A program made the position numbers and the translations under genes. 64,000 bases of DNA from positions 1-64,000 of the IMG/VR virus record IMGVR_UViG_3300005253_000361; one strand, 5' to 3'. The notes below the pieces were generated by a model that worked only from the letters and a program-made list of their open reading frames with translations, had not been told where the DNA came from and made no database searches. The DNA is from a virus. Positions 14,456 to 60,827 of this stretch are shown one piece after another (within the stretch, counting starts at the first letter, position 1; every line of letters begins with the position of its first letter).

Positions 14456-14586
14456 TGAGCAAGTTCGTCGTTCAGGGGTACTACCCCGACAGCCAGCAGA
14501 CGGTTGTCGACCACCGGACAGGAGCAGATTGGAAGGAGGGGGGAGATGCAGCTCGAGGAGATTGGGTTCTACACACTCTCGGATGA
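14455..14586 (+). pseudogene. Truncated duplicate of the 11492 gene, 43 aa
   Basis: The first 30 bases, encoding MSKFVVQGYY, and the preceding GAGGGGGAGTG leader are identical to those of the 11492 gene. After that the sequence diverges and the frame ends in low-complexity residues read through the leader of the radical SAM gene. It looks like a 5' fragment left by duplication and deletion. Confidence 0.5.
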
Positions 14587-29190: not shown

Positions 29191-29399
29191 CCGGCCGGCG
29201 CGGAGTGAGTCTCCGGGTGGCGCTCAAGCGTGCCCGGGTCGCAGGTTTCGAGATCACCCGCCGGGGCAGTGAATACGTGCTGAGCCATCCGTTGGCTCCG
29301 CACCCCCGGTACACGATCAACCACAGGAGTAAGGACGTGGCGCCCTGGTTGATCTCCGGCATCGTATCAGTAGAAGCACAGCAGAAGGAGGCAGCATGA
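29187..29399 (+). CDS. Small HicA-like-fold protein, 70 aa
   Basis: LRVALKRARVAGFEITRRGS then EYVLSHPLAPHPRYTINHRS: helix then three strands, similar to the double-stranded RNA-binding fold of HicA and to small phage proteins. The HicA catalytic histidine (in xGSHxxF) is replaced by GSEYVLSH, so a toxin role is doubtful. Start and stop overlap neighbours by ATGA. Confidence 0.5.
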   Translation: MTGRRGVSLRVALKRARVAGFEITRRGSEYVLSHPLAPHPRYTINHRSKDVAPWLISGIVSVEAQQKEAA

Positions 29400-39854: not shown

Positions 39855-41009
39855 TTATGCTGTCGGTTGTTGGCGAATTGCGTCTTCTGGAGATTGAGCC
39901 CGAGCCAAGTGCTGCTGGATCGCCGCCATGGAGGTCCCGTTACCCTCAACTACACCGGCATACTCGTCAGCCTCACGCGCGGCCACAGGAAAGAACCGCA
40001 GAAACAGATCCCTCACCTGCTCGGGGCCCGGGCCTTCAATCTCCCAACGCTGATCTATGCGTCCGGCACGCACCAGCGGCGCCGGTAGAAGGTCTGCATC
40101 GTTGGCGGTGATAACCAGTAGCCGCCCCTCGGACGCGAGCGGCCCATCTATCGTGTTGAGCAGCCCTGCCAGCGTGACGCTCGTGTCGGTGCCGAAGTCG
40201 ATCTTCTCGATGTCCTCCAGCACCACCAGTGATCGCCCCGGCAACTGCGCCATGGCGCGAGCCAACGTGGCGTCATTGAAGTCATCCCCCTGCGACAGCG
40301 TGAGCACATACAGGGGCATTTGGTAGTGGCCGGCGATCGCCTGGACGAGCGAAGACTTGCCGTTTCCAGGGGGCCCCACGAGCAGGTATCCACGCCGATA
40401 CGGCAAACCCCGTTCCACGTGCCACGATCGAGCGTTCCGGAACCAATCAACATCATCGACGATCTCGTCCATCAGACCGGGGCGCAGCACTACCGATTCG
40501 AGTGGTCGCGGTTCGCCGACACGGATCTGTGACCATCCACCGTTCTGGTTATTGATGTACGCGACCTGCTTGCCGCGGCGGCGCAACATTGCCGCATCGA
40601 CCACGTCGTGCACGAGGGCTCGAATCGGGGACGGATCACGTCCCAGCGCTCGCAGGGTGATGGTCCGAGCCTTGGCGCCGGCATAGCCAACCTCTTCGAG
40701 AGTCTGGTGAAGAAGACACCAACGATTCTCGTAACGGAACACGTGCACGCCAAGGCCGGGCTCGAGCACCGCACGCGGCTCGTCTCGTTCGCCCTCGTAA
40801 GCCACGAACCCCGACAGCCTCCGGCAGCTACGGCCGTAGCTGGTCTCGGCGAGCCACTCGCCCATCCAACGCACGAACTCGGTGTCCATCGTGTAGAAGG
40901 ACGCGGTAAAGAATCTATCGAACACGTAGCGGGGCAGGTAGCGCACCGCAGCGGCTGCGGCACCGAGCGCCATGAGGTACAGACCGCCCTCGAAGAACTG
41001 GTTCTCCAT
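39855..41009 (-). CDS. BCS1-like AAA+ ATPase, 384 aa
   Basis: N-terminal membrane helix (GGLYLMALGAAAAAVRYLPR, about residues 8-27), then a BCS1-type N-domain and linker (HVERGLPYRRGYLLVGPPGN), Walker A GPPGNGKSS (about 218-226), Walker B RSLVVLEDIEKIDFG (about 265-279), sensor RLLVITANDADLL and the Arg-finger segment VRAGRIDQRWE. BCS1 is an AAA+ protein of mitochondrial inner membranes that moves folded Rieske protein; bacterial and phage homologues are of unknown function. It is downstream of the DUF483-like gene with a TAATG overlap. Confidence 0.8.
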   Translation of the reverse strand: MENQFFEGGLYLMALGAAAAAVRYLPRYVFDRFFTASFYTMDTEFVRWMGEWLAETSYGRSCRRLSGFVAYEGERDEPRAVLEPGLGVHVFRYENRWCLLHQTLEEVGYAGAKARTITLRALGRDPSPIRALVHDVVDAAMLRRRGKQVAYINNQNGGWSQIRVGEPRPLESVVLRPGLMDEIVDDVDWFRNARSWHVERGLPYRRGYLLVGPPGNGKSSLVQAIAGHYQMPLYVLTLSQGDDFNDATLARAMAQLPGRSLVVLEDIEKIDFGTDTSVTLAGLLNTIDGPLASEGRLLVITANDADLLPAPLVRAGRIDQRWEIEGPGPEQVRDLFLRFFPVAAREADEYAGVVEGNGTSMAAIQQHLARAQSPEDAIRQQPTA

Positions 41010-41980
41010 TACGCCGTCTCTTTCTTCTTCTCGAACATCTTCGTGTAGTCCATCATGGGCCAGAACTGTCCCGCTACTCGGCCCGGGATCTTGTCGTAGG
41101 TGAATGGGAGCAGCCAGGGGTCCGGCTCGACGTGCACGATGTAACGGTGCTGGGTCTCGACGGAGCCGGCGTGCACGGTGAAGGCAGGCGTCACCACCTT
41201 GGCCCACCCGTGGCAGACATCCCACGCCATCGGGAGACTCAGCAGCTGGATCGTCGCCTTGCCGCCTCCGGGAGTGATCTCCTCCATGATCCGGATCCAT
41301 TCCTCGGCCCGGTTGATCGTGGCGCCACACTGGAGTTGACAGGTCAGGTGGAACATCACCCGGGCGCTCGCGTACCGGAGCATGTTGTTCGTGGCCGGAT
41401 GGGCCTTCACCTGCAGTACCTCTACAGGACGCTCCGGGGGATTCGCAATACTGTAGGGGCCGCCCACGTAGGGCAGCTCCAGCGCGCCAGGGGTGTTCTG
41501 GGCCGACTGCCAGATGGGGTCGCAGTACTCCGGCCAGTGCTGGTCAAAAAATCCGACACAACAAGGCGGGAAACCCAATAGATCTCCAATGGCGTTGTGG
41601 TTGGACTCCTCATGGGCTGCCTCGAAGGCATCGAGATTTGCATCATCGGGCGACACCACGGTGAACCAGGAGAAGTTCGGGTCACCCTCACGGAGCGGTG
41701 CGTGCCGGCGGTGGCTGAACCCATCGCTGGGGCCGACCGTAGTGAGCCGGCGCCACTTGAGTCCGTACCGCGCGAGTTTCTCGTACATCCTGTCACCGCC
41801 CACGTTCGGGATGTGGCAGGTACCGCAGGCACGAACACCATCGGCGGCCGTCTTGAGCTCCGCTTCCCAGCAGACACTGGAGGCCAGCTTGAAGGCCGGA
41901 CCCCAGTAGTCGCGCGCCTCGGAGGAGTGGTAGGTGATGCGGGTGAAGCTCGGGGCTTCGAAGTTCGGTAGGAGCTTCAT
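41009..41980 (-). CDS. DUF483-like protein, 323 aa
   Basis: Contains IGDLLGFPPCCVGFFDQHWP (about residues 132-151), the LG(F/Y)PxCCxxFF signature I associate with DUF483. Also cysteine clusters CGTCHIPNVGG (about 53-63) and FHLTCQLQCG, so at least three Cys pairs in all. ATG 41980 is chosen over an upstream ORF extension that is Arg/Pro-rich shadow sequence. The family's activity is unknown; position next to AAA and radical SAM genes makes a joint role plausible but unproven. Confidence 0.6.
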   Translation of the reverse strand: MKLLPNFEAPSFTRITYHSSEARDYWGPAFKLASSVCWEAELKTAADGVRACGTCHIPNVGGDRMYEKLARYGLKWRRLTTVGPSDGFSHRRHAPLREGDPNFSWFTVVSPDDANLDAFEAAHEESNHNAIGDLLGFPPCCVGFFDQHWPEYCDPIWQSAQNTPGALELPYVGGPYSIANPPERPVEVLQVKAHPATNNMLRYASARVMFHLTCQLQCGATINRAEEWIRIMEEITPGGGKATIQLLSLPMAWDVCHGWAKVVTPAFTVHAGSVETQHRYIVHVEPDPWLLPFTYDKIPGRVAGQFWPMMDYTKMFEKKKETA

Positions 41981-42312
41981 CGGAGCCTCGCCAACCACAC
42001 AACCTTGCACGCGATGTGTAGGAACTGGTCTTCGTGAACGTTGATCCGGTTCTCGCACTTGGCGAAGTCGATCAGCCAATGCACCACCGTCTCAGCCGCA
42101 CCGAGATAAACGTTGCTGGTGATCGCCCACACGACACCGCCGTGAATGAGAGCGTGAGAGGATAGCCAGTAGGGCCAGCAAAGCGTGCAGGTTGCCCCCG
42201 GCGGTGTCGTGGTTCTGTTGTGTCGGTTCTTGCCCTTCGCCATCGCGTCGGACTGTAGGACGAAGTCCGCCAGGGCGTGCCCGATCAGTAGCGCGAAGAA
42301 TGTCTCGATCAT
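41977..42312 (-). CDS. DUF3307-like membrane protein, 111 aa
   Basis: MIETFFALLIGHALADFVLQ SDAMAKGK matches the start of DUF3307, a small polytopic protein with a conserved His/Asp in the first helix. Further membrane segments are PYWLSSHALIHGGVVWAIT and VVHWLIDFAKCEN. Common in phages and bacteria, function unknown. ATGA overlap with the DUF483-like gene. Confidence 0.7.
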   Translation of the reverse strand: MIETFFALLIGHALADFVLQSDAMAKGKNRHNRTTTPPGATCTLCWPYWLSSHALIHGGVVWAITSNVYLGAAETVVHWLIDFAKCENRINVHEDQFLHIACKVVWLARLR

Positions 42313-42619: not shown

Positions 42620-42810
42620 TGCTTGCTCTCCGGGTGAGGTAGAACAACCACCTCTTTGTAGACGATGTACTCGGGTAAGCCGGTCCAGCCGCAGGGCCAA
42701 CAGATCACGTCACCGCTGAACTGGATGTCGCTGCTGTTCAGATGGTCGAAGGTCTCCTCGTACACCTCGGTGCTGTCGCACTCCGGACAGTGGTACTTGC
42801 CGTCAGCCAT
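42616..42810 (-). CDS. Zinc-ribbon protein, 64 aa
   Basis: MADGKYHCPECDSTEVYEET then ICWPCGWTGLPEYIVYKE: CxxC, about 28 residues, CxxC, like the plus-strand 11773 and 13823 proteins. ATG lies within the last codons of the radical SAM gene (ATGGCTGA). Confidence 0.65.
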   Translation of the reverse strand: MADGKYHCPECDSTEVYEETFDHLNSSDIQFSGDVICWPCGWTGLPEYIVYKEVVVLPHPESKQ

Positions 42811-45319
42811 TTGAATCTCCGTGGTCGTCGTAGTTGCCGTGCGGGACGTTGGCGTGCTCCAGTGGGTTCTTCTGGTGAGCCGCGTCCGCGTGGTCGCCGT
42901 GGTCGTCGTAGTTGCCGTGGGCCACATTCGCGTGGGCGGGATCGTTGGGATCGACAAGCTTCAGTTGGCAAGGGTTGCCGACCGGCGCATCCTCAGTCCG
43001 GACGAACTCAGAGTTCTTCGCCTCGCCTCGCCAGGCCGAGGGACGATACGTGTTGGCTTTCCGCAGCCAGCGGAACGGATCCCAGGGCGGTTCGTTCTGT
43101 TGGATCGAGTGGTAGAGACCATTGGCGTCGAACCGGTGCGCCACCTGGTCAAGTGTCGTGAGATTCGGGATGGTCCGGTGGAGATGGTCCGCTACCGCCT
43201 GATAGAGGCCGGCCCAGCCACGACAGAAGCGGGTGCGGTTGCGCCAGTCACCATCGATCGCGTGACCGTTGCAGTGGCCCGTGCAGACTGCCCACCAGCG
43301 GCACACCTGATCGCCGTCACGTCCATCCACACCGCCGAGGCATCCACCGTGCTCATGCGAGACGCCCCGCAGTATCTCGTAGCGAGCCTCGGAGAACTTC
43401 TTGTCCTCGGCTACCTGGTACGGGATCCCCCCGGCCGCATACAAATGTTCGCAAACTCCGATTGCCGAGTCCTCCTGGATGGTCCGTTCGGCAGCCGTGT
43501 GGAGAGGATCGCATTGGGTCCGAACGCATGTAAATTGGCCGCACCCGAGCAACCCGTCCATCGTTTCCGCGATGGCGGGAAACTGGTAACCCCGACTCAG
43601 ACTCCACGGCACAAACTCTGCCCAGAAGGCTGCCATATCGGTTTCGGAAAGCTCCCAGTCAGAGCGCTCCGGCTCGGTATCGATATGGGCGGGGTTGAGA
43701 CGTGGATTGCGAATACCGTGGTCGGCGAGCCAGTCGATGAACCGCTTCAACTCATCGATCTTCCGACGGTTCTGCCCCGGCACCAGACCCGGGCCGGCGT
43801 TAGCCTTGGTCAGGCAGATGATCAGACCGGGGGGCCGGTGCTCCCTGCAGAGCCGCAGGAGTGTCCGGAGCGTGGCGGCTGTGCCCTCCAGGGTGGTGCG
43901 TAGGGTGTTGCCCATCTTACGAACATCGTTCAGGCGCCCCCAGCCGTCGATCGAGAGCCCCACGTTGACGTTGTACCGCTTGAACATGGCCATGTGGTCG
44001 TCGTCGACCAGCACGCCGTTCGTCTGGATCGCGGCCTTGCCGAACCGCTCGTGGTTGATCCGAAAGATCTCCTCGAGGTCGGCCTTCTTGATCAGAAGAG
44101 GTTCGCCGCCGTGCGCGGTAGCTACCGCGGCGCCGCCCCGATTCTCTTCCTCCCAATCCCACTGGGCATTGATTGCCCGAATGGCCGCGTGGATATCGTA
44201 GTCGTGGGCCTTCTTGACGTTGCCGAGATCCCTGGCGGTGTTCTGGTAACAGTCCACCGAAAGAAACCCTCCAGCCACAAAGGTCTTACTGGTCGTCTCG
44301 ACATCATAAACTTCAGGGTCTCGCTTGTGTCCCATAGGCTCGATGGCCGTAATCTGAGCCCGGGGCGTCTTCGAAACTGCACCCGTAATCGCCACTTTGC
44401 GTGTGAGCGCCGGCCGACAAAGAGAAGCGAACCGTGCAACCTCAGGTCGGCCGCCCCGCATATAGACCCACCATGAATCGTCCGCCTTCTGGGCGATCCG
44501 GACATCGAACCCTAACTTCTCCCAGCAGTACCGAACCTCGTCAATAGCCTCCTGCTCCTTTTGGCAGATGCCAAGACCATTTCGGGTGCCTTCAGCGTCA
44601 AACATGCCTGCGAGCCACCCCTTAATGAATGGAGTACTCCTACCCATCGGAGGGGTTTCGGCGAGATCCATTAACGCGGTCAGGTCATCATTCCGGTGCA
44701 CGCGAGTAAGGTGACTGTAGGAAAGTTCGGCCCCCGTATCCTTTCGCTTGTGGTGCACGCGAGAAAGTTCAACGCCGAAAAGAGATTTGGCGTACAACTC
44801 TACTCGGTCCAGGAGTTCTTGATCCTTCGAATAGACCTTGAAAGTGCTTACGGGACCGCGCTTGCATACGTAATCCCCCCAGCTGCCGTCCCCAAAACTG
44901 ACCCCAGATAGCCACCCAGCTCGATAGTCGCTGTCCTGAGTAATGTCCTCCTTAACGGGGTCACACAAATGCAGGAACGCATCGCCTACCCGTAGGTCCC
45001 TCGTCCGGACCACACAATGGCGGTCCTGCCGCTTAACGAGCCACTCATGATCCGGTGTCGACTTGACCTCCCCTGCAGTCGTGGTGATGCGAATCAACCG
45101 CTCACGCTTGCGGATGAGGCGAATAACTTCCGTATCAACGTACCGTCGATACTTCTTGCCCTCCACAGCATCGAGTTCCCAGGAAACCAGGCGGTCCCCA
45201 ACCTCGACAGACTCGATGGGTTTCCAACTACCGTCGGTCAACAGCATCAGTGTGCCCTTGGCCAGACAGTGGCTACACGACAGGTTGCAGGCGCGCGTCA
45301 ACTTGGTTGATTGCGGCAA
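42803..45319 (-). CDS. Radical SAM/SPASM enzyme with intein and His/Asp-repeat tail, 838 aa precursor
   Basis: TTG start at 45319 after CCAAAGGAGGGGGAACC. Residues 1-17 give RACNLSCSH; an intein (18-356) follows; the extein resumes CYQNTARDLG. Joined, this makes CNLSCSHCY, a normal 4Fe-4S radical SAM motif. Later features are GGEP-equivalent AHGGEPLLI, NVGLSIDGWG, and a C-terminal SPASM-like Cys set (QVCRWWAVCTGHCNGHA; RTRFCRGW). Spliced length is 499 residues. The last 45 residues read AHANVAHGNYDDHGDHADAA and EHANVPHGNYDDHGD, the same His/Asp repeat as the 46347 protein. SPASM radical SAM enzymes generally modify peptides or proteins. I infer that it modifies the repeat protein; chemistry unknown. 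Confidence 0.85.
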   Translation of the reverse strand: MPQSTKLTRACNLSCSHCLAKGTLMLLTDGSWKPIESVEVGDRLVSWELDAVEGKKYRRYVDTEVIRLIRKRERLIRITTTAGEVKSTPDHEWLVKRQDRHCVVRTRDLRVGDAFLHLCDPVKEDITQDSDYRAGWLSGVSFGDGSWGDYVCKRGPVSTFKVYSKDQELLDRVELYAKSLFGVELSRVHHKRKDTGAELSYSHLTRVHRNDDLTALMDLAETPPMGRSTPFIKGWLAGMFDAEGTRNGLGICQKEQEAIDEVRYCWEKLGFDVRIAQKADDSWWVYMRGGRPEVARFASLCRPALTRKVAITGAVSKTPRAQITAIEPMGHKRDPEVYDVETTSKTFVAGGFLSVDCYQNTARDLGNVKKAHDYDIHAAIRAINAQWDWEEENRGGAAVATAHGGEPLLIKKADLEEIFRINHERFGKAAIQTNGVLVDDDHMAMFKRYNVNVGLSIDGWGRLNDVRKMGNTLRTTLEGTAATLRTLLRLCREHRPPGLIICLTKANAGPGLVPGQNRRKIDELKRFIDWLADHGIRNPRLNPAHIDTEPERSDWELSETDMAAFWAEFVPWSLSRGYQFPAIAETMDGLLGCGQFTCVRTQCDPLHTAAERTIQEDSAIGVCEHLYAAGGIPYQVAEDKKFSEARYEILRGVSHEHGGCLGGVDGRDGDQVCRWWAVCTGHCNGHAIDGDWRNRTRFCRGWAGLYQAVADHLHRTIPNLTTLDQVAHRFDANGLYHSIQQNEPPWDPFRWLRKANTYRPSAWRGEAKNSEFVRTEDAPVGNPCQLKLVDPNDPAHANVAHGNYDDHGDHADAAHQKNPLEHANVPHGNYDDHGDSNG
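44252..45268 (-). other. Intein with LAGLIDADG endonuclease, 339 aa
   Basis: Block A is CLAKGTLMLLTDGSWKPIES at the N-terminus; block B has STPDHEWLV (TxxH). Two dodecapeptides, GWLSGVSFGDGS and GWLAGMFDAEGT, mark a LAGLIDADG homing endonuclease. Block F/G reads VYDVETTSKTFVAGGFLSVD followed by Cys of the extein. The usual penultimate His and terminal Asn are Val and Asp. Insertion is exactly at the third cysteine of the radical SAM cluster motif, a conserved site. Confidence 0.85.
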
Positions 45320-45335
45320 GGTTCCCCCTCCTTTG

Positions 45336-45353
45336 GCCGACTCCTCAGTCGGC
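45336..45353 (-). promoter_or_regulatory. TGAGGA-loop hairpin before the radical SAM gene
   Basis: On the minus strand GCCGAC-TGAGGA-GTCGGC, a perfect 6-bp stem, then CAAAGGAGGGGGAACC and the TTG start. The TGA in the loop is the stop codon of the 45345-45716 gene. Confidence 0.7.
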
Positions 45354-45716
45354 GCGAACTCGAAATGGCGTCTGCTTCTCCAGATAGATAGTGTGCTGGT
45401 GGCCCGGAATACCGGGCTCGATAGTCGGGTAGAGCGCGAACGCCTGAAGGACCTCGCAGGTCATCCCGACCGGATAGCGCCGCAAGAACCACCTGGGGGC
45501 GAAGCGTTGCTTAACCGCCTGCCACCAATCAGTTGGCCACTCGCAGTGGACCTCCTCGACAGTCTTCCCCAGCACCCGCATCTCAACGTCAACAACGAGC
45601 TCCTCGAGCTGCAGGTCCCAGTGGGCAGTCGGCAGGTCAAAAAGACGCCCGTGCAGAATCTTCCGTTGGTGAAAGCGCAAGACGTCGAGGACGACCTTTT
45701 CGGTCTCGATGTTCAT
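45345..45716 (-). CDS. Hypothetical protein, 123 aa
   Basis: MNIETEKVVLDVLRFHQRKI then DLPTAHWDLQLEELVVDVEM and VEEVHCEWPTDWWQAVKQRF; ends YLEKQTPFRVRAD. Trp-rich alpha/beta. It lies between the repeat protein and the radical SAM gene, so may belong to that system. Ends in the loop of the next gene's leader hairpin. Confidence 0.65.
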   Translation of the reverse strand: MNIETEKVVLDVLRFHQRKILHGRLFDLPTAHWDLQLEELVVDVEMRVLGKTVEEVHCEWPTDWWQAVKQRFAPRWFLRRYPVGMTCEVLQAFALYPTIEPGIPGHQHTIYLEKQTPFRVRAD

Positions 45717-45738
45717 AGGTAGGTTCCCCCTCCTTTGA

Positions 45739-45754
45739 TCAGCCCCTCAGCCGA
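45739..45754 (-). promoter_or_regulatory. TGAGGG-loop hairpin before the 45345-45716 gene
   Basis: On the minus strand TCGGC-TGAGGG-GCTGA (5 bp, one G-U), then TCAAAGGAGGGGGAACC. The 3' arm ends with the stop codon of the 45739-46005 gene. Confidence 0.6.
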
Positions 45755-46005
45755 CCTCGAGTAGCCCTCGCTCGCTCCAGCTGAGCGGACAAGATGTCGA
45801 GCCACTCCTGGGCCCGCTCAAGAGTCATACGGCGAGTGGCCATCACCTCGCCATTGACGATGTACTTGTCAAAGCCCCCCTCGGGGACCGGCACGTTCCA
45901 CTCGAGGTCGACCTTGACCGCCGAGCCGGTCTCACCCCAGGCCTCGATCGGGACGAGATTCGGGCCGTGAATATCGTCGAGTTCTACGAGATGTGCAGAT
46001 GCCAT
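45739..46005 (-). CDS. Hypothetical protein, 88 aa
   Basis: VELDDIHGPNLVPIEAWGET then DLEWNVPVPEGGFDKYIVNG and LERAQEWLDILSAQLERARA. A beta-rich N-terminus and a C-terminal helix. Positioned in the block between the repeat protein and radical SAM enzyme. Function unknown. Confidence 0.6.
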   Translation of the reverse strand: MASAHLVELDDIHGPNLVPIEAWGETGSAVKVDLEWNVPVPEGGFDKYIVNGEVMATRRMTLERAQEWLDILSAQLERARATRGRLRG

Positions 46006-46035
46006 ATAGGTTCCCCCTCCTTTTTCCCTCGGTCG

Positions 46036-46053
46036 GCCGGTCCCTCAACCGAC
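46036..46053 (-). promoter_or_regulatory. TGAGGG-loop hairpin before the 45739-46005 gene
   Basis: On the minus strand GTCGGT-TGAGGG-ACCGGC (6 bp, one G-U), then CGACCGAGGGAAAAAGGAGGGGGAACC-type leader. Confidence 0.65.
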
Positions 46054-46102
46054 GCAGCTACTCTGCTAAATCACCGCGCCACTGTCCAGTGAACTCTCAC
46101 CG

Positions 46103-46336
46103 TCAGGAAGTTTTTATTTCCTCGCCCGTACGCTCGTTCAGCATCACGGTATTGCCGCAGACCGGGCAGCTGAACCGATCGCTCGTCTGGGGATCCCGAT
46201 GGGGTGGTACCCCGGTGAACATGTGGGCATAGGCGAGCCCGCCCCGGATGCCCTCGCAAGCAGCCCGCCAGACGGTTTCGCCGCAAGCCGCGCAGTCGAT
46301 GAAATCCTCCTTACGGAACAGCACTTCTGTCTCCAT
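46103..46336 (-). CDS. Zinc-ribbon protein, 77 aa
   Basis: KEDFIDCAACGETVWRAACE then DRFSCPVCGNTVMLNERTGE: CxxC, about 34 residues, CxxC. First gene downstream of the repeat protein. Start after TAGGAGGGGGAAG. Confidence 0.65.
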   Translation of the reverse strand: METEVLFRKEDFIDCAACGETVWRAACEGIRGGLAYAHMFTGVPPHRDPQTSDRFSCPVCGNTVMLNERTGEEIKTS

Positions 46337-46346
46337 CTTCCCCCTC

Positions 46347-47747
46347 CTAGACCCCGATCTCGGTCGGGTCGTCCACGTAGGCCACTGACAGATTGTCGTC
46401 GTGGTTGTCGTGGGCGGTGTCGGTGTGTGGTGTCGCGTCCTGGTGCGTTACATCGTCGTGGTCGGTGTAATTTGAGTGGGCGGTGTCGTCGTGGTCCGCG
46501 TGGTTCGTATGGGCGGTGTCGTTGTGATCGTCGTGGTTGATGTGGGCTACATCCGCGTGATCCTGGTGGTTGTCGTGGGCGACATCCGTATGGTCGTCAT
46601 GGTTGGTGTGCGCGGTGTCGGTGTGGTCGGTGTGGTTCACGTGCGCGACGTCGTCGTGATCGCTGTAGTTGATGTGGGCGACGTCAGAGTGGTCCGTATA
46701 GTCCGCGTGGGCCGTGTTGTTGTGGGATGAGGTGTCGGTATGGGCCACATCGGTGTGGTCGGTGTAGTTGGCGTGTGAAGCATTAGTGAAGTCGTCGTAG
46801 TCGGAGTGCGCGACATCGCTGTGGTCGGAGTGGTCCGAGTGGGCTAGGTCCCCGTGATCGGTGTAATCGTCATAATCGGTATAATCCTCGTGGAATGGAA
46901 CATCGTCCCAATCATCGTGGTACGTCTGGTCGTGGCTATTGTCCAGATTGTCGTGCGCTACGTCGCTATGATCGTTCCAGTCGTCATGAACGACATCAAC
47001 ATGATCGTCCCAGTCGTCATAAGCGGTGTCGGTGTGGTTATTGATGTTGCTGTGCGCGACGTTGTTGTGATCGGACCAGTTGATGTGAGTGACGTCGCTG
47101 TGGTCCGAATGGTTCGTGTGGGCGGTGTCGGAGTGATCGGTGTGGTTGTCGTGCACCGTATCGGTGTGCTGGGTCGAGGTGTTGTCCACGTAGGCTGTAT
47201 CATCGTGATCCGAGATATCAGTATGGGAGACGTCATCGTGATCGGTGTAGTTGCTGTGGGCCGTGTCGGAATGGTCGCTGTAATTTATGTGAGCGACATC
47301 GGAGTGGTCTGAACCGGTGTTGTCGTCATGCGCGACATCGGCGTGGTCACTGTGGTTGTCGTGGGCCACGTCAGAATGATCTGAATGATTGTCGTGGGCC
47401 GCGTCGCCATGGTCGCTGTAGTTGGTGTGCGCGACGTCAGCGTGCCCAATTACCTCCCGGCCCGACTCGCCAATCCAACGCCAGCGACCGTTGCCGGTGT
47501 CGTCCTCGACCCAATAACTACCTTGTACCCCGTCGCTGTGCGACTGGATATCGATCGGGAGACGGCGCTCATCCCCAGTGGCGCTAACGTAGTGCCAGTA
47601 ATCCCCTTCTACCCAGTAGCTGCCCACGACTGCCGGACTCGGAGTCGAGACGTACTCGGCCGTCTGGTATTGCCACTCCGAGGCAACCTCGTCGATGAAG
47701 CACCAGTAGTCCCCCTCGACCCAGAACGATCCAGCAGTCTTAGCCAT
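46347..47747 (-). CDS. His/Asp 11-residue repeat protein (probable fibre or decoration), 466 aa
   Basis: The first 100 residues have three modules starting GS(F/Y)WVEGDYW (7-16, 42-51) and GSYWVEDD (76-83). Residues about 102-458 are roughly 30 units of an 11-residue repeat with consensus D-H-x-D-(V/T)-A-H-x-(N/D)-(Y/H)-S. Typical units are DHSDVAHINYS and DHTDTAHTNHD. About one residue in four is His, and Asp is as common. Periodicity suggests a stacked beta fold or a metal-binding rod. It follows two tail-fibre genes on the late transcript, so a virion fibre is likely. The enzyme at 42803 ends with the same repeat. No membrane segment or signal. Short C-terminal cap ends PTEIGV. Confidence 0.75.
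   Translation of the reverse strand: MAKTAGSFWVEGDYWCFIDEVASEWQYQTAEYVSTPSPAVVGSYWVEGDYWHYVSATGDERRLPIDIQSHSDGVQGSYWVEDDTGNGRWRWIGESGREVIGHADVAHTNYSDHGDAAHDNHSDHSDVAHDNHSDHADVAHDDNTGSDHSDVAHINYSDHSDTAHSNYTDHDDVSHTDISDHDDTAYVDNTSTQHTDTVHDNHTDHSDTAHTNHSDHSDVTHINWSDHNNVAHSNINNHTDTAYDDWDDHVDVVHDDWNDHSDVAHDNLDNSHDQTYHDDWDDVPFHEDYTDYDDYTDHGDLAHSDHSDHSDVAHSDYDDFTNASHANYTDHTDVAHTDTSSHNNTAHADYTDHSDVAHINYSDHDDVAHVNHTDHTDTAHTNHDDHTDVAHDNHQDHADVAHINHDDHNDTAHTNHADHDDTAHSNYTDHDDVTHQDATPHTDTAHDNHDDNLSVAYVDDPTEIGV
46374..47444 (-). repeat. Tandem 33-bp coding repeats (about 30 units)
   Basis: Diverged at DNA level but periodic at 33 bp; encodes the His/Asp repeats. The two spots where register slips are near residues 258-290 (QTYHDDWDDVPFHEDY) and the DYDDYTDHGD unit. 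The opposite strand is open for long stretches as Val/Ile-rich shadow ORFs. Confidence 0.85.
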
Positions 47748-47756
47748 CCCGACCCC

Positions 47757-48647
47757 CTATACGGTGACCCACTTGTTCGCCCCAATCGGAGCGATCGCTC
47801 CGGCGAGTCCCCTGAGGTTACGGCTCGAATCCACGACGGTCGTGGCACCGATCTGCAGACTGTCCGCCTCGAGCGTCGCGATACCGGTAATGTTGAAGGC
47901 GCCTGTCGCCCAATGGGCTGTAAGCGCGATCGAACCGCCGGCCCGAAGGAAGGCCGCGCTACTGAGACTGTCGAGCGTGTCAGCGTCCAAGCCGGTCTCG
48001 TTGACCGCGATCGTGATTTGATTCCCGGGGTTATCCGGGGTGATGACGATTTGGTTTCCAGCCACCAAGTTGACGTCCCCGCCTGAATTCGACACCCCGT
48101 CGATACTCGCGAGCGCGCCCGCTTGGGCCGCCGTTACGCTGTGGGGGTTCGAGGTCGAGGACACGTGAGGGTCGACATACCCCTTGGTCGTGAGGTCGTT
48201 CGACCCTGAAGGTGTGGCGCCCCGGACGATCGCGTAGGCCGAATCGCCCGCGTTGCGTGCCGCCACGACACCGGCCGCCTCCCGCTGGAACCACACATCG
48301 AGCGCAGAACCAACGCCGGCACCGAACGCAATACCGCTGCGGGACGCGTCAAGCTGCACCACCGGATTCGCATCACCGGCCGCCCCGTAGAGACTGGCAT
48401 CCACACCGACGTAGAAAACATCAGACGCAATCGGGATCCAGTCGGCCCCGTCGAAGCTGAAGTAGAAGATGTCCTCGTCGGTCGCCATGTACTGCTGCGA
48501 TACAGCTGGGGCCGCCGGTAGGTTCACCACGGGTCCGTAGTCCGCCTCGGTCATCGCGAGGTAGATGAAGTCGTTCAGGTCGGAGGCACGCGTGGTGGTG
48601 CCGACCGACACCTCATAGAGCGACAGATCACGGACAGGTGTTGCCAC
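47757..48647 (-). CDS. Tail-fibre protein, 296 aa
   Basis: GTG start. N-terminal 190 residues align with those of the 51190-52926 fibre: MATPVRDLSLYEVSVGTTTR, APAVSQQYMATDEDIFYF, QREAAGVVAARNAGDSAYAI. Contains TSNPHSVTAAQAGA, a phage tail-fibre repeat element, then a beta-rich end (NLRGLAGAIAPIGANKWVTV). No C-terminal chaperone domain. Probably a shorter fibre or a decoration protein for the same tail attachment. Confidence 0.75.
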   Translation of the reverse strand: MATPVRDLSLYEVSVGTTTRASDLNDFIYLAMTEADYGPVVNLPAAPAVSQQYMATDEDIFYFSFDGADWIPIASDVFYVGVDASLYGAAGDANPVVQLDASRSGIAFGAGVGSALDVWFQREAAGVVAARNAGDSAYAIVRGATPSGSNDLTTKGYVDPHVSSTSNPHSVTAAQAGALASIDGVSNSGGDVNLVAGNQIVITPDNPGNQITIAVNETGLDADTLDSLSSAAFLRAGGSIALTAHWATGAFNITGIATLEADSLQIGATTVVDSSRNLRGLAGAIAPIGANKWVTV

Positions 48648-50875: not shown

Positions 50876-51193
50876 CTACGCTGGGTTAAGGTCGGTTTCG
50901 TCTTCGGAGGTAGTGCCGGCGCCGAGCTTCCCGTCAGCCACCAGCTGGTCCAGCACGACCTGGCGCAGTCTTGGCTTGGCCCCAGAGAAGTCCTTTCGAT
51001 TTATGGCCCGGATCAACACCTTGGCCTCCGCACCATGGTAGGTATGCTGGGTCGGACGCTCCAGGGCGTCGTGGGTCTCGATCGACACCAGGTACTGATC
51101 CTCCGCGGGGGCGAAACGGAGACGGAAATCCACCACCTCTACGGTCGAGAGATCCACCATCAGAGGGGTGTCGAGTACTAGGGTTGCGCTCAT
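50876..51193 (-). CDS. Small late protein, 105 aa
   Basis: TLVLDTPLMVDLSTVEVVDF then RLRFAPAEDQYLVSIETHDA and LRQVVLDQLVADGKLGAGTT. Beta-rich with a helical end. ATGA overlap with the fibre gene before it. May assist fibre assembly; not recognised. Confidence 0.6.
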   Translation of the reverse strand: MSATLVLDTPLMVDLSTVEVVDFRLRFAPAEDQYLVSIETHDALERPTQHTYHGAEAKVLIRAINRKDFSGAKPRLRQVVLDQLVADGKLGAGTTSEDETDLNPA

Positions 51194-52926
51194 GCAGCCA
51201 ACTTCCTTTCGAGTTCGGCCACCTTGGCCTTGAGACGTCGGACCTCGGGTTCGAGCTTGTCGACACGAGGCATTAGTCGTTCAATGTCTGCTGTGTGCTC
51301 GTTGAATCCGGCCACCACCAGCGGTAGCACCTTGCTGTACTTCAGACCGAGGAACCCATCGGGGTCGGTATAGACCGCCTCAGGCAGAACCTTCTGAACG
51401 TCCTGCGCGATGAGGAACGCACGCCGTTGCCCTGCCGCCTTCGCGTCGAAGCGTTCCGATTCGATGAAGTACCCTGTCTCGGTGCGCAGCGTGCCGAGCT
51501 TACGGGTGGCGTCCACGATAGGCTCCAGGCCGGTCTTGAGACGCTCGTCCGAAACGGCCACCCACGCGGTCGCACCTAAGGTCAGGTCGACGCCACCCGA
51601 GCCTCCCGCGACGCAGCGAATCACATCGGCGGACACCTCGGTGAGATACGTGTTGCTGCCACCGTCGAGGTAGAGCTTCTTGGTGGACCCTAGCGACCAG
51701 TTCCCCATGACGCCACTGGTCTGTGCAGCCACGCGGAAGTACGCGGCCAAACCGCCACCGGTATAGATGTCGATGCGGTTGGCGCTGGACTCGGTGATGT
51801 ACGTGTCGCTGCCGCCGTCGAGGAAGAGCTTCTTCAACGGGTCTACTGACGCTGATTGGCGGAACTTCCAAATACCCGAAGTCGAGCTCACCATTACCGT
51901 TCCGCCGACTACAACTTGGTAGTTGTCTACGCTGGACTCGGTGATGTACGTGTCACCGCCGCCATCCAAGTAGAGCTTCTTGAGGGCCGACAGGTAGATG
52001 TCGTCGGTAAAGCTCCACTGGCCCGTGATGACCTCGGCAACCCCGACCTGCGGGACCCCAACAGCCGTGAGGTTGCCCGTGTGGACCAGAGTCCGGGTCG
52101 CGTCAGGCGTGATGGTCTCGTCGGCCGACAGGATGCCACTGAACTCGAGAAGCTGCGGATCACTACCGCCGGAGAACTTGAGCGCTCGCGCGTTGCCTGA
52201 CCAGCTGGTCGAGATCGATTTGTAATTCCCGGCCCCGTCCTCGTACACGTTGACCCCGATCAACCCGTACCCAGCCGTGAACTCCTGGATGCAGAAGTAG
52301 CTGCCGACCAGGATCCGGTCGTCCCGCAGGAGCGTGATGTCGGCCCCCGACATCTGAAGATCGCCCGTCATGATGCCGCCAGCCAGCGCGACAGCACCCG
52401 TCTGACCTGCCGACACCCCGTGCGGATTCGCGCCCGAGCTCGCATGGGTGTCATGGTGGCTCTTCGTCACGTAATCGTTGTCGCCGACCGGGGCGAGGCC
52501 GCGCATGATCCCGTAGGCACTGTTGGCGGCGTTACGGATCGCCACAACCTCGGTGGCCTCACGCTGGACGAAGGTGTCGTGCGCGTTCGAACCCCCTTGG
52601 CCGAACCCGACGGCTGTCCGGCTCGCGCTCAACTGGACCTTGGAATAGGTATCCGAGACGGCCCCGTAGAGATCCAGATCATCGCCCATCTGGACCTTGG
52701 TGCTCGCGATCGGCGTCAGGGTGCCGGCCTCGAGCGCCATGTAGAAGACCCCGCTGTCCGTGGCGAGATACTGCTGACTCACGGCGGGCGAACCCGGCCG
52801 GCTACCGTAGAGGCCGTAGTCGGTCTCGGTCAGGCTGAGGTAGAGAGCGTTGTTCTGATGGGATGCTCGGGTAGTGTTGCCCGGGCTAACTGTATAGAGC
52901 GATACGTCGCGAACCGGCGTGGCCAC
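51190..52926 (-). CDS. Tail fibre with C-terminal S74-type intramolecular chaperone, 578 aa
   Basis: GTG start. N-terminal 190 residues match the 47757-48647 fibre. The centre contains three near-identical modules LYLDGGxxTYITESSV (about 290-450), i.e. KKLYLDGGGDTYITESS, KKLFLDGGSDTYITESS and KKLYLDGGSNTYLTEVS. The end (about 465-578) is an S74 chaperone: VAVSDERLKTGLEPIVDATR, RRAFLIAQDVQKVLPEAVYT, GLKYSKVLPLVVAGFNEHT. That domain trimerises the fibre and normally cleaves itself at the Ser-Asp-Glu-Arg site. This is a receptor-contacting side fibre or tailspike. Confidence 0.85.
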   Translation of the reverse strand: MATPVRDVSLYTVSPGNTTRASHQNNALYLSLTETDYGLYGSRPGSPAVSQQYLATDSGVFYMALEAGTLTPIASTKVQMGDDLDLYGAVSDTYSKVQLSASRTAVGFGQGGSNAHDTFVQREATEVVAIRNAANSAYGIMRGLAPVGDNDYVTKSHHDTHASSGANPHGVSAGQTGAVALAGGIMTGDLQMSGADITLLRDDRILVGSYFCIQEFTAGYGLIGVNVYEDGAGNYKSISTSWSGNARALKFSGGSDPQLLEFSGILSADETITPDATRTLVHTGNLTAVGVPQVGVAEVITGQWSFTDDIYLSALKKLYLDGGGDTYITESSVDNYQVVVGGTVMVSSTSGIWKFRQSASVDPLKKLFLDGGSDTYITESSANRIDIYTGGGLAAYFRVAAQTSGVMGNWSLGSTKKLYLDGGSNTYLTEVSADVIRCVAGGSGGVDLTLGATAWVAVSDERLKTGLEPIVDATRKLGTLRTETGYFIESERFDAKAAGQRRAFLIAQDVQKVLPEAVYTDPDGFLGLKYSKVLPLVVAGFNEHTADIERLMPRVDKLEPEVRRLKAKVAELERKLAA

Positions 52927-55667: not shown

Positions 55668-58600
55668 TTAGTTATACGGGAACACGCCGTCCTGGTGTAC
55701 CGAAATATCCCCGTTTAGGGTCCCCTCGCCAACAATCTTCGCCACGACCCCCTGGACCTCTCGGTTGCCGATGAACACCTGGATAGTCGGGCGCACCACC
55801 GGAGTCATATCGGAACCGCCCAGGTTGGCACCACTGAGGGCTTCCGCGACCGCCTTGGCGATCTGGTTGGGTGAGATCGAGGCCGCCATCGAGGCCGCCG
55901 GCGCGGTCTGGCTGACATCCCCGGCGGAAAAGTCGCCGAGCCCGGAGTAGTTTAGCGAGGCCGCCATGGTGGCGCCGGCATCGGTGAAGAAGCCAGTGAG
56001 GTTGGCGGCGGTCTCCTGGCCGTACTGCCGGAGCAACTTGAACTGTTTGACGGCGCCCTTCCGTACATCCGGGAACACGCTGTTCCCGATCATGTCGTCC
56101 TCGTACGCCCCGAAGTATCCACTCAGCCGTCGAGCAGCTTCTCGCCCGGCATCGTCCATTCCCTGGAAGGTGTCGTCAACATAACGGCCCATGTCGCCCC
56201 AGCCGTCCTCCATCTCGTCCCACAAGTTGCCGTAGTTGGTCCGGAGGTCATCGTAGGCGCCCTGCCCAGCCTCCGAGATGTCGCGGAACGCATCCTGACC
56301 GTTTCGGGAAACGAACCCGAAGCCGTCCCGGATGTCCTTCAGGACGTTCACAACGTCCTCCATGATGTCGTGCATGTCCCGCTGGGCCTCGGTGATGATC
56401 CCGGCCTCTTCCGCCTGGTCAATCAACTCCTGAGTAGCATCACTCAACTCGTACCCGTACTGCGCGGCGGTGTCGCGGACCTCAGTCAGGTAACCGGCCA
56501 TGACGCCGAGCGCCTGGTTGTGGTCAAAGCCAGCCGCGGTCAACTCCTCATACATGCCGGAGCCCTGCTGGGTCAGCAGTTCGAACGTCTCGAGGTTCAT
56601 CGCGCCAATGTTGTTGAGGCCCGCCATGACCTGCGTGAGTCCGCCGAAACCGTCGACGAGCTCGCGGTTGGTCTGCACGAGGCTGCGGAACTGGATCAGC
56701 TTGTTGAACGCCGCGTCGCCTTCGATGCCCAGCAGCTGCTGTCGGCGAACCAGCTCATCGAGACTCGGCGCGATGGCGTCCATCGCCTCAACAACGGAGG
56801 AGCCGTTCGCGATCATCTCGTTGAAGACCGTCAGGGTGATGATACCGAGGCGCTCATACTCAGCCGTCAGATCGCCACCACTCGCGATCAGCACCTCGAT
56901 CTCCTTCTGGAGCTCATGAATCTGCTCCGCCTCCTCCTCGGTGAGCTCGCGATTCTCCTCCCGCGCGTCCGCGAGAATCTTCGCGATCGCCTCAGTCTTC
57001 TCCAGCCAGAGATCAAACAGAGGACCGTGGACCGCCAGCAGCTTCTCCAGGCCTTCAGCCACACCGGCGAGCTCATCGCCGATGAACGCGAGGACGGACG
57101 GGATCTCGAGACCACGTTCCCGAACCTCCTTGAGGAACCGAATGACGGATGCGTCGCCCGTGATGCCGAGCTCCTTCATCTGCTCCACCAGCAGACCAAA
57201 GGCATCGTCCAGAATCTTCGTGGCCTGGCTAGTCGAGATCACGCCGCTATCTAGATCGTAGAACAGCTGTACCAGCTGACCCGCGTACCGGCTGAAGTTC
57301 TCGGTCGTGACCCCGATCTCCTCCATGACGGCTCCCATGTGGAGCACGCGCGACGCAAATATCCCGATCGACTCAGACGACTTAGCGATCTTCCCTCCCA
57401 GCTCCAGCGAGAGAGTGCCCATGTTGGCGTAGAAAAACACCACGGTCTTGGCCAGCTTCTCGAACTTCTCCTCAGCCGACTCAGTGAAGAAGCCGATGAT
57501 TGACCCGATGGCCGCACCGACGCCGGCGATCGCAGCACCGATGGGACCGCCGGTAGCGAACCCGGTCGCGATTGCGGAGCCGATCGCCACGATGGCGCCC
57601 TTCCAGCCGGCCGAAGCGGTGGCGGCGTAACCAGCGACAGCAGAACCGACACCGAGGAAGATCTTGCCCACCATGCCCATGCCCTCTTCGGTGGCCTGCA
57701 CCATCTCACCATCCTGGCCCACCACATCACCCCACGAAACGGACGCCTCAACCGAGACCTGTTCCACCGTACCGCCAGAACCGAGAAGCTTGGTGAACCA
57801 CCCCTGCACGACGCCGACAAACCCCTCAGCTTGCTTCTCAGCCGGGCCAAAGAACTTATCCCGCAGAGACAGCAACAGGCCACCGAACGTGTCGACGATC
57901 ATCTTCTTCGCGAGACCCTTGAAGAGACGCTCGATGAATTCACCGAACGAGGTGCCGTCAAAAATCATTTGGGCAATCGCGTCCCCCATGCCCTTCGTGA
58001 TGGAGTCGAAGAAGTTGGTCCAGAGGTCCTTCCCCTTCTTGGTGCTCTCGGCCATCTCGTCGCGGATCTTCTGCTGCAGGGCCCCGAAGTCCCCACCCAT
58101 CTCCTCATAGATCCGCTTGATCTCTTGGAACTCGGCCCCGTAGAGCGAGTTGACGACATCGATCGGCAGCGCAGCCGCGATCAGCTCTTCTCGTCCTTCG
58201 ACGAGGGTTCCGAGCAGCTCGCCCACATACAGCCGCTTGAGTGCCGGCGCCCAGTCCTGCACCATAAAATCCTGCACGACGAGGAGGCCGTCCGTGAGAC
58301 TCTGCTTGATCTGGAACGGAAGATCTGTCGACACGAAACCATCACCGAGCTTGTTCAGCTCTTCGCGCACATCCGCCAGCGCATCCACAAACGCTTGCGT
58401 TTCCTTTGCGAGAGTGCCGGACTCGACCAAGTACCGCCCCATGATGCCGAAGAATTCGTCATTGATGTAGTCGCCGTACAGCTTGTGGAACTTCCGAACA
58501 CGTGCCAACTGGTCCCCGACGAGCTGTAGGGCCTTCATTTCCGACAGACCCTCCGCGATGTTCTTACGGTAGATCTGCAGGATTGCTTCCTGGACCTCAA

Positions 58601-60827
58601 TATAGGACTCACGATCCGAGATCTCCTGGAGCATCTGCTCCCGGAGCTTGACCCGCGCGGCGGCAGCGGCGCGGATCACCTCATTCTCCGACTCGAGAGC
58701 CTTAAGCTCAGCCTTGTGCATCACATCCAGCAGGACGTACCCATTGGCCCAGACATCGATATTGTCTGCCGCATCGAGGACCGTCTGGGACCAGCCCCAA
58801 GTGGTGTCGTCAACTGCCTTGATCCCGCCGGCGAGATGCGACAGACCCAACACCATGTCAGCTGCCGCGCCCATCCCCAGCAGGCGCATCTGCATGGAGG
58901 CGGCGAACAACTTGAGCGACATGTTGTGGAGTGCGTCCTCGACAACCTGGAACGCGGGGGCGACCAAGTCGCGCATAATCGTCGCGACCGTGCGCGCGAT
59001 GTCGATCGTCATGGTCTCGGCGAACCACGCAATACTCTCGCCCATCTTCCCGAGGCCCCAAAAGACCATGTCGACGAAGCCATTCCACTCAGGCTCGAAA
59101 TCCTCCGAGATCGCCCGACCGGCCGTCTGGGCCATCCAGGTGAAAGCGTGACCAAGGTCGCGGAGCCCCTGCTGCATGATGAACGACTGGTTGTAGGCGT
59201 CGCGAAAGGCCCAGATGACCCCGATCAAGGTGAAGCCCTTGACGATGGCCCAGAAGGCTCGGAACGCCCACCCGACCTCCAAAACGGTGTTCTTAAACAG
59301 ACCCAACCAGCTGAGCCCGATCATCAGCGAGGGGATGAAGACGTCGAAGAAAGCGACGTAGCCGACCAACACCTGCAAGAGACCCGTCAGAACAGCCTTG
59401 ACCTCACTGGCGGCAAACTTGAGCCTATCGAAGTTGACAATCATCCAGTCGATCTTCTCGCTCGCGAGATCGATCCACCGGACGAGCGTGTCCTTCATAC
59501 TGAAGAACCACAGCAGAGACAGGTCGGTCACCTTGGAGAAGAAGAGCTTGTACCGGTTCGTCAGTGAGCCCAGAAGGGCCTCATAGGTCGCGACCGACAG
59601 ATTCCCCTCGACCGAGTTCTTCCACCGATCAGAAAACTGCTGGAGCGAATCGATCCCAACCGCCAGACTGGCTCGAAAAGACGTGATGAACTGAGCCACG
59701 ACCGGGCCGGCGCGGCGCCCAAAGATAACGGCCGAATCGCCGGCGTCGAAGAACGAGAACGCGAGGGTCCGAAGGATGTCGGGGAGTGGACGCATCAGCG
59801 GGTCGAGGTCCCTCACTCGCAACCCGAGCTCCAAGATGCGCTTGGCTGCTTCCGTGCTCGGATCCAGCAGGGCCTGGATCATGAACCGGAACGCCCGGCC
59901 CGAGATACCGCCCTGCTTGGTCACGTCGACAAAACCCGCCACGACCGCCATCATGTCCGAGATCCCAACACCCGCGGCCGCTGCGGCCGGGGCGGAAAAC
60001 TTCAGGGCATCCTTCAGGCGATCGATATTGAGCGTGGTGGTGGCGATAGAGAACACGAGACCGTCCGCGATATCGCCCAGGTCCTCGGACGAGAGCCCGA
60101 AGGCCTTCATAATCTGGGTCAAGATATCGGTTGCGGTCGAGAGGTCTGTCTGGGCCGCAGCGGCGAACGCAGCCGAGGCGGCGATCGCGTCCTGGACTTC
60201 CGGCACCGTGAGCCCGACCGACACAAGCTCGTACATTGCGGTCGCAAGCTGAGTGGCGGTGAAGACGGTCTCGCGGGCAAGCGTCCTGGCGGTTTCGGTG
60301 AGCTGCTCGAAGGCCGGCTGGATCACATCCGTCACAGCGGCTGCGGCCACAACCGCCGTACGGAGCATCGCGTCCTCGAAGTCCTTGCCGGTCTGGATCG
60401 TGAACCGGATCCCCTCACGGATCCATCGGAGCGGGGCCAAGACAGCATTCTGAATCGTGGTGGCGAACGTGAACGTGAGCCTGCGGACGAAGACCCCGGA
60501 GAAGTTTTGAAGGTCGGACTTCATGTGACCCCAGAGGGATCGATAGCTCGAGCCCATCTGCTTCCCGGACTTCTCGGAATTCGACATCGAGACCGCCATC
60601 TGACCCAGGCCGGTCTTGGCCGACATCCCGATCTTGTCGTAGTTCTTGGAGGCCTGGGAGGCGAACTGGTTCAACGTCGCGAACGGGTTCGCGGCCTTCG
60701 TCATGGAGGCGCCCGAGGTGGCGGCAAACTGCTTGATGCGAGTGGCCGCGACAGCGAGGTCAGCCGCGAAGAGACGCAGATCGGCCCGGAGGGCGATCAG
60801 GTACTCTTCACGCGATACGACCGACAC
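55668..60827 (-). CDS. Tail tape measure protein (TP901-type), 1719 aa
   Basis: GTG start at 60827. N-terminal 350 residues hold the TP901 core: FEDAMLRTAVVAAAAVTDVI, ATAMYELVSVGLTVPEVQDA, LSSEDLGDIADGLVFSIATT and GGISGRAFRFMIQALLDPST. Membrane-like helices occur mid-protein (FWAIVKGFTLIGVIWAF) and around GKIFLGVGSAVAGYAATASA and GPIGAAIAGVGAAIGSIIGF, as in proteins injected with the DNA. At about 0.15 nm per residue the tail would be some 250 nm long. Coiled-coil stretches are frequent. Confirms a siphovirus-like long non-contractile tail or, less likely, a contractile one. Confidence 0.95.
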   Translation of the reverse strand: MSVVSREEYLIALRADLRLFAADLAVAATRIKQFAATSGASMTKAANPFATLNQFASQASKNYDKIGMSAKTGLGQMAVSMSNSEKSGKQMGSSYRSLWGHMKSDLQNFSGVFVRRLTFTFATTIQNAVLAPLRWIREGIRFTIQTGKDFEDAMLRTAVVAAAAVTDVIQPAFEQLTETARTLARETVFTATQLATAMYELVSVGLTVPEVQDAIAASAAFAAAAQTDLSTATDILTQIMKAFGLSSEDLGDIADGLVFSIATTTLNIDRLKDALKFSAPAAAAAGVGISDMMAVVAGFVDVTKQGGISGRAFRFMIQALLDPSTEAAKRILELGLRVRDLDPLMRPLPDILRTLAFSFFDAGDSAVIFGRRAGPVVAQFITSFRASLAVGIDSLQQFSDRWKNSVEGNLSVATYEALLGSLTNRYKLFFSKVTDLSLLWFFSMKDTLVRWIDLASEKIDWMIVNFDRLKFAASEVKAVLTGLLQVLVGYVAFFDVFIPSLMIGLSWLGLFKNTVLEVGWAFRAFWAIVKGFTLIGVIWAFRDAYNQSFIMQQGLRDLGHAFTWMAQTAGRAISEDFEPEWNGFVDMVFWGLGKMGESIAWFAETMTIDIARTVATIMRDLVAPAFQVVEDALHNMSLKLFAASMQMRLLGMGAAADMVLGLSHLAGGIKAVDDTTWGWSQTVLDAADNIDVWANGYVLLDVMHKAELKALESENEVIRAAAAARVKLREQMLQEISDRESYIEVQEAILQIYRKNIAEGLSEMKALQLVGDQLARVRKFHKLYGDYINDEFFGIMGRYLVESGTLAKETQAFVDALADVREELNKLGDGFVSTDLPFQIKQSLTDGLLVVQDFMVQDWAPALKRLYVGELLGTLVEGREELIAAALPIDVVNSLYGAEFQEIKRIYEEMGGDFGALQQKIRDEMAESTKKGKDLWTNFFDSITKGMGDAIAQMIFDGTSFGEFIERLFKGLAKKMIVDTFGGLLLSLRDKFFGPAEKQAEGFVGVVQGWFTKLLGSGGTVEQVSVEASVSWGDVVGQDGEMVQATEEGMGMVGKIFLGVGSAVAGYAATASAGWKGAIVAIGSAIATGFATGGPIGAAIAGVGAAIGSIIGFFTESAEEKFEKLAKTVVFFYANMGTLSLELGGKIAKSSESIGIFASRVLHMGAVMEEIGVTTENFSRYAGQLVQLFYDLDSGVISTSQATKILDDAFGLLVEQMKELGITGDASVIRFLKEVRERGLEIPSVLAFIGDELAGVAEGLEKLLAVHGPLFDLWLEKTEAIAKILADAREENRELTEEEAEQIHELQKEIEVLIASGGDLTAEYERLGIITLTVFNEMIANGSSVVEAMDAIAPSLDELVRRQQLLGIEGDAAFNKLIQFRSLVQTNRELVDGFGGLTQVMAGLNNIGAMNLETFELLTQQGSGMYEELTAAGFDHNQALGVMAGYLTEVRDTAAQYGYELSDATQELIDQAEEAGIITEAQRDMHDIMEDVVNVLKDIRDGFGFVSRNGQDAFRDISEAGQGAYDDLRTNYGNLWDEMEDGWGDMGRYVDDTFQGMDDAGREAARRLSGYFGAYEDDMIGNSVFPDVRKGAVKQFKLLRQYGQETAANLTGFFTDAGATMAASLNYSGLGDFSAGDVSQTAPAASMAASISPNQIAKAVAEALSGANLGGSDMTPVVRPTIQVFIGNREVQGVVAKIVGEGTLNGDISVHQDGVFPYN

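Follow-up and report, generated by a model that had tools for sequence, protein, structure and literature searches.

Does a virus-encoded radical SAM/SPASM enzyme modify the neighbouring repeat protein whose motif it carries in its own tail, and by what chemistry? The question is raised by a locus in the window, the 64,000-nucleotide stretch that we analysed (bases 1-64000 of a viral record 117,123 bases long). The relevant features are as follows.

55668..60827, minus strand: tape measure protein (context)
51190..52926, minus strand: tail fibre with intramolecular chaperone (Peptidase_S74; context)
47757..48647, minus strand: protein directly upstream of the repeat gene, with the C-terminus APIGANKWVTV
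46347..47747, minus strand: repeat protein, 466 aa; GSxWVEGxxxxY units (about residues 1-100), then 86 aromatic-x-Asp/Asn triads
45345..46336, minus strand: three small ORFs of 123, 88 and 77 aa, located between the putative substrate and enzyme genes
42803..45319, minus strand: radical SAM/SPASM enzyme precursor, 838 aa, TTG start, ribosome-binding site AGGAGGGGGAACC
44252..45268, minus strand: intein with LAGLIDADG endonuclease, residues 18-356 of the precursor, before the third Cys of CxxxCxxC
42806..42937, minus strand: enzyme tail, last 44 aa, with the same triads as the repeat protein
41009..42079, minus strand: DUF483-like partner of the enzyme; Met at 41980 is the likely start; carries the motifs GFPPCC and HLTCxxxC

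The tail genes on the minus strand are ordered as tape measure, S74-type fibre, APIGANKWVTV protein, repeat protein, three small ORFs and enzyme; beyond the enzyme gene, the same run continues with small ORFs and then the DUF483-like gene. The gene order and strand given in the original prediction held, with the three small ORFs lying between the repeat gene and the enzyme gene. The repeat gene sits among tail and baseplate genes, and in loci L007, L014 and L085 the repeats either belong to large tail-like proteins or follow the upstream motif in a fusion. From this gene order and these repeat-bearing proteins we infer a location in the virion; the repeat protein would be a continuation of the tail fibre and is the proposed substrate of the enzyme.

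The APIGANKWVTV-type C-terminal motif precedes the repeat protein, or is fused to it, in 12 cases. ORF ends matching P[VI]G[AT][DN]KW occurred in 19 of 9,530 ORFs, every one in a family locus. The motif ends an ORF adjoining or fused to the repeat protein in the window, L002, L007, L012, L073, L074, L080 and L083-L085.

Other genes of the window were also noted. A BCS1-like AAA ATPase (39855-41330; Pfam BCS1_N, AAA, AAA_lid_BCS1), unusual for a phage, adjoins the module. A second radical SAM gene was found at 14504-15568 (89 bits to PF04055), with a weak third match at record position 94304, and the ORF at 29396-30643 resembles an RtcB-type RNA ligase by eye.

The enzyme precursor

The ORF at 42803-45319 matched the Pfam models Radical_SAM, LAGLIDADG_3 and Intein_splicing, the last under its curated cut-off. 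The intein bounds were obtained by alignment with intein-free relatives, which match the enzyme only from residue 357 onward, and they fall exactly before the third cluster Cys. The spliced enzyme aligned without a gap where CNLSCSH meets CYQN. The intein ends in Asp, not Asn, and the +1 residue is Cys. The top NCBIfam match of the window enzyme was an intein-containing, Rv2578c-type radical SAM model, perhaps with the same insertion site. Near-identical ribosome-binding sites (AAAGGAGGGGGAACCT) were found on the enzyme gene and on two of the three small ORFs, which supports the TTG start at 45319.

An alignment of 45 members showed C12/C16/C19, C245-x14-G-x4-C265, C299-x2-C302-x5-C308-x3-C312 and C328 to be invariant. 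Membership among radical SAM/SPASM enzymes, tested with the pattern CxxxCxxC + C-x(9-15)-G-x4-C ... C-x2-C-x5-C-x3-C ... C, was met. After splicing, the window enzyme keeps the cluster and SPASM cysteines; an insertion of 10 residues separates its counterparts of C299 and C302. Alignment with relatives thus upheld the claim that intein removal leaves an intact CxxxCxxC and SPASM-like cysteines.

The AlphaFold2 model of a relative, L014, was confident (pLDDT 88.8), and its tail was predicted to be disordered. The closest solved folds were those of ChlB and an anaerobic sulfatase maturase, followed by SkfB, other thioether-forming enzymes and SuiB.

A conserved module of enzyme, repeat protein and DUF483-like protein

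Scanning viral sequences with the intein-containing window protein alone gave no match, whereas alignments of intein-free relatives succeeded. Relatives of the enzyme were found in the Thermus phages Cumys, phiMa and phiLo, in about 30 metagenomic phage contigs and in some bacteria. Enzyme alignments, run against viral and genome contigs, yielded 58 non-redundant members, and 64 background SPASM loci from the same scans served as the control set. The family forms one clade apart from the background enzymes (support 100/99). The window enzyme stands beside L086 and L087 in the tree, its exact place being unsure owing to long branches.

A repeat ORF was found nearby in 44 of the 58 members but in none of the 64 background loci (Fisher 3e-21). 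On viral contigs it was present in 29 of 32, and the exceptions (L006, L056 and L079) lie on short or cut contigs. A reverse scan with four HxD units detected diversified HxD proteins at 23 viral loci. The enzyme family is present in the records of 20 of these; at the remaining three, the protein is identical or closely similar to one from enzyme-bearing records. Tandem HxD-like ORFs in L178, L193, L194, L220, L226, L237 and L240, whose records lack the enzyme, are low-complexity and were excluded. Only 3 of 50,697 phage records contain the enzyme, and all three have HxD proteins. Co-occurrence in other phages, the check suggested with the original prediction, was therefore passed in both directions, and the observation is part of a widespread, conserved module. 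The module, its motif, its co-occurrence and its tail-gene context are shown at the sequence level.

Cumys and phiMa share the order tail-collar fibre gene, small gene, repeat protein, enzyme and DUF483-domain protein; their repeat protein has a GSxWVEG start followed by HxD repeats, and their enzyme has an HxD tail. In phiLo, the HxD tail of the enzyme is long, a DUF483-like gene is present, and three large HxD proteins are encoded a short way after the baseplate wedge genes.

The original prediction named homologues without both the tail and a repeat protein as a refuting case. These were found only on chromosomes of Bradyrhizobium (seven loci, L144-L150, one clade) and Plesiocystis (L134), which have the enzyme and the DUF483-like gene. 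No convincing HxD or other aromatic-x-residue repeats were found in their chromosomal neighbourhoods, and these members count against the proposal.

Participation of the DUF483-like, AAA and small neighbouring proteins had also been suggested. The DUF483-like protein is part of the module, its gene being present in 54 of the 58 members and in none of the background loci. No support for module membership was found for the AAA protein, and no evidence for the three small ORFs; both are absent from the Cumys/phiMa module. Against Pfam DUF483 (PF04467; gathering score 25 bits), the L010 protein scored 25.7 and other relatives 16-20, while the window protein gave no match. An alignment of 22 relatives showed that PxCC and H-x2-C-x3-C residues are kept, and the window protein aligned with the same conserved residues. 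The AlphaFold2 model of a DUF483-like protein (pLDDT 83.7) had no fold match in the PDB, nor was there a meaningful sequence match among solved structures. DUF483-like proteins are fused to a class I methyltransferase in some phages and to the enzyme itself in some bacteria. The protein could be a helper or a carrier of the substrate, or it could itself be a second modifying enzyme; these roles are possible and only inferred.

The tail of the window enzyme contains the triads HAN, HGN, YDD, HGD and HAD, so that the claimed sharing of a repeat between enzyme and repeat protein held. Of the 32 members on viral contigs, 28 have a tail, as do the Thermus phages; tails are absent from L008, L009, L056, L058 and most cellular members. 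The tail is thus widespread among phage members, yet dispensable. One alternative holds that it is a meaningless by-product of recent recombination with the neighbouring repeats, as repetitive DNA recombines and several members have no tail. We consider this very unlikely: tails occur in 34 of 58 members but 2 of 64 controls, across distant branches, and they have their own composition, with Gly at the middle position in 51% of triads versus 12% in the repeats. The tail had been proposed to be a substrate mimic or a docking segment, and neither was favoured by our results; docking, autoinhibition and self-modification are all possible.

The triad motif of the repeat proteins

The triads of the window repeat protein lie mostly in 11-aa units (HxD-xA-HxN-YxD). 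Asp or Asn occupies +2 for 99% of its 69 repeat-region His and for all 18 Tyr/Trp. Across 63 repeat proteins with 1,944 His, +2 was Asp/Asn in 99%, compared with 9% for +1, 7% for +3 and 22% in shuffled regions. The repeat regions were picked by motif density; this choice raises the figures somewhat, yet it cannot account for the difference between +2 and the adjoining positions. The shared motif is thus not due to chance, and the pair of tail and repeat protein recurs in independent phages. For Phe, the overall share with Asp/Asn at +2 was 67%, and it was 75-100% for most of the substrates found in several lake phages. The middle position was never Pro (0/2,304, against a 4.65% background in repeat regions) and was otherwise free. 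Triads are spaced 3-9 residues apart as a rule, with no single period across the family; a pentapeptide-repeat match of the L008 substrate was taken as compositional, given this variable spacing.

When homologous pairs were aligned, differences at the first and third triad residues amounted to 6-7%, compared with 32% for the middle residue and 35% for linkers, and the substitutions at the first and third positions were mostly His/Tyr/Phe and Asp/Asn swaps. A caveat is that the aligner possibly favours pairing His and Asp. Cys makes up only 0.24% of the repeats. Lys and Arg are almost absent, so that trypsin would miss the repeats. The substrates are mostly phage proteins of about 180-800 aa, and about 900 aa or more in bacteria. 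The Cumys repeat protein (Cumys_13), which has 57 triads, had no match in the PDB.

The residues change while the geometry stays. The N-terminal domain of the window repeat protein is common to Cumys, L008, L010 and L012, and L008 has Phe-x-Asn in place of His-x-Asp behind it; the L008 enzyme is placed inside a clade of His users (support 100/98). Lake phages mix HxD, HxN and FxN within one protein. Homologous very large bacterial proteins, whose homology lies outside their tails, end in HxD in some species and in HxK in L139 and L143. The latter two (L139:2-1180 and L143:4007-6667), beside the same enzyme family, are very large helical-repeat proteins with H-x-K ends and no clear Pfam family.

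These data bear on the possibility that the repeats form a metal-binding or purely structural fibre, comparable to T4 gp37 with its HxH motif, and that the enzyme acts elsewhere, for example on DNA. His and Asp do bind metals, and DNA modification was proposed from cyanobacterial neighbours in deazapurine gene contexts (PMC11437467). However, the geometry is unchanged in the Phe-x-Asn and His-x-Lys versions, which cannot bind metal in the same way, and HxH is essentially absent. The enzyme itself carries the repeat motif, and it co-occurs almost completely with repeat genes in phages. We regard this explanation as very unlikely. An Asp-specific change likewise fits poorly, because the L008, lake-phage and HxK swaps keep the geometry. 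Action of the enzyme on the repeats is strongly supported by sequence, as originally predicted, and modification of the repeats is very likely; the chemical change itself is inferred, without mass or NMR data.

Proposed chemistry and comparison with known systems

Triceptide enzymes form bonds between a ring carbon of Trp, Phe, Tyr or His (i) and the C-beta of Asn, Asp, Ser, Ala or Arg (i+2), and the known links are Phe-Asn, Trp-Asn/Asp, Tyr-Asp, His-Ala and His-Arg (PMC11002830). The radical forms at the aliphatic residue and then adds to the ring (PMC12026744). The substrate pattern of the phage system is that of these cyclophane-forming enzymes, from which we derive a cyclophane reading. 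A bond from i to i+2 is favoured because ring and third-residue swaps keep the geometry while the side chains change.

In the proposed mechanism, the intein would splice out and restore the CxxxCxxC cluster site. The SPASM enzyme would then move along the repeat protein, acting on each aromatic-x-Asp/Asn triad: a hydrogen would be abstracted from the beta-carbon of the third residue, and the resulting radical would attack the ring of the first residue, which is aromatic (His, also Phe/Tyr). The product would be a three-residue cyclophane in which a C-C bond connects i with i+2, at a loss of 2 Da per ring, and dozens of such rings would stiffen the tail fibre. The DUF483-like protein may be a regular helper or a second modifying enzyme. 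We consider it likely that this is a phage module modifying a tail-fibre protein by repeated cyclophane formation; the chemistry, the stiffening and the roles of the tail and the DUF483-like protein are inferred. To our knowledge, His-Ala and His-Arg cyclophanes have been described to date, but no His-Asp cyclophane, which counts against the proposal.

Alternatively, the enzyme might modify the triads by other radical chemistry, namely epimerisation, beta-hydroxylation, a bond from His-N to C-beta, or desaturation. SPASM enzymes are chemically diverse, this family is far from all named families, and the scores of anaerobic sulfatase maturase and DynA are about equal to those of the cyclophane makers. 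However, strict i, i+2 pairing with swaps of the ring (His/Phe/Tyr) and of the third residue (Asp/Asn/Lys) fits a two-residue bond better than a one-residue change. Thioethers are excluded by the scarcity of Cys, and the residue after the cluster Cys in anaerobic sulfatase maturase (Asp277) is Gly in this family. Other chemistry is thus unlikely, and cyclophane formation remains the preferred reading.

On a bolder reading, phages of many lineages covalently reinforce their tail fibres with long His/Phe/Tyr-to-Asp/Asn cyclophane arrays (a polycyclophane fibre), while in bacteria this enzyme and its DUF483-like partner act on very large proteins, at their tails; we lean only slightly towards it. 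If it is true, a polycyclophane protein fibre would be new both as a material and as a modification of virions. If the main proposal is true, this would be the first radical SAM system that a virus encodes and directs at its virion. One protein would hold up to about 100 candidate crosslinks, well above the number in known peptide products, and the covalent reinforcement of the fibre would be of a kind not described for any virus. The proposal connects the Thermus phage module, which had been described without being explained, and the orphan DUF483 family with a concrete substrate, and it can be tested directly in cultured Thermus phages. We found no virion proteomics for these proteins, and tryptic proteomics would overlook them.

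The original statement that no such phage system is described has to be amended. Kolesnik et al. 2024 (PMC11437467) described an 'rSAM module' of Cumys and phiMa, comprising the rSAM, a DUF483-domain protein and an unknown gene, and noted prophages and cyanobacteria with it. It is the same module, with a different guess at its function; HxD repeats, tail motif and protein substrate are absent from the sections of that paper bearing on it. No phage radical SAM system acting on tails was found in the mainly open-access literature that we searched.

The His-Xaa-Ser system (HxsA-D) likewise combines His-x repeats with a SPASM enzyme, but the third residue of the phage triad is Asp/Asn, not Ser, and the context is a phage tail. 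Its criteria were not met: the HxsB model scored 36 bits against the phiLo enzyme (cut-off 370), no HxsB/HxsC pair was seen, and the Cumys/phiMa module as annotated has no second radical SAM gene. Anaerobic sulfatase maturase is close in sequence and fold, but membership was not met (87 bits at best versus 349), and the phage system has no sulfatase or CxPxR motif. Asp277 is the catalytic general-base Asp of that enzyme, and it is replaced by Gly here. T4-type HxH metal-binding fibres are also His-rich phage fibres; the phage system differs in having HxD/N, FxN and YxD, not HxH, and a dedicated modifying enzyme.

The nearest named families include the cyclophane makers XyeB, YhhB, AmcB, GrrM and FxsB; intein match aside, XyeB and YhhB, both cyclophane-forming, are nearest to the window enzyme. 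Membership in XyeB, GrrM/OscB, FxsB, YhhB or AmcB was not met, because all scores were far below cut-off (best 83 versus 425 bits, AmcB; window enzyme 58 versus 450, XyeB). This distance counts against the proposal. On the evidence, the window enzyme likely works like triceptide enzymes, by inferred chemistry, yet is not a member of those families. Like the triceptide maturases (XncB, OscB, MscB, YxdB, HaaB and YhhB; PMC11002830), it is a SPASM enzyme next to an aromatic-x-(Asn/Asp/other) triad substrate, and His, Phe and Tyr rings are known partners. The criterion of an adjacent triad substrate was met and that of a short precursor peptide was not. The phage system differs from these maturases in its DUF483-like partner, in the copy of the motif on the enzyme, and in a long structural substrate with tens to about 100 triads in place of a short peptide natural product.
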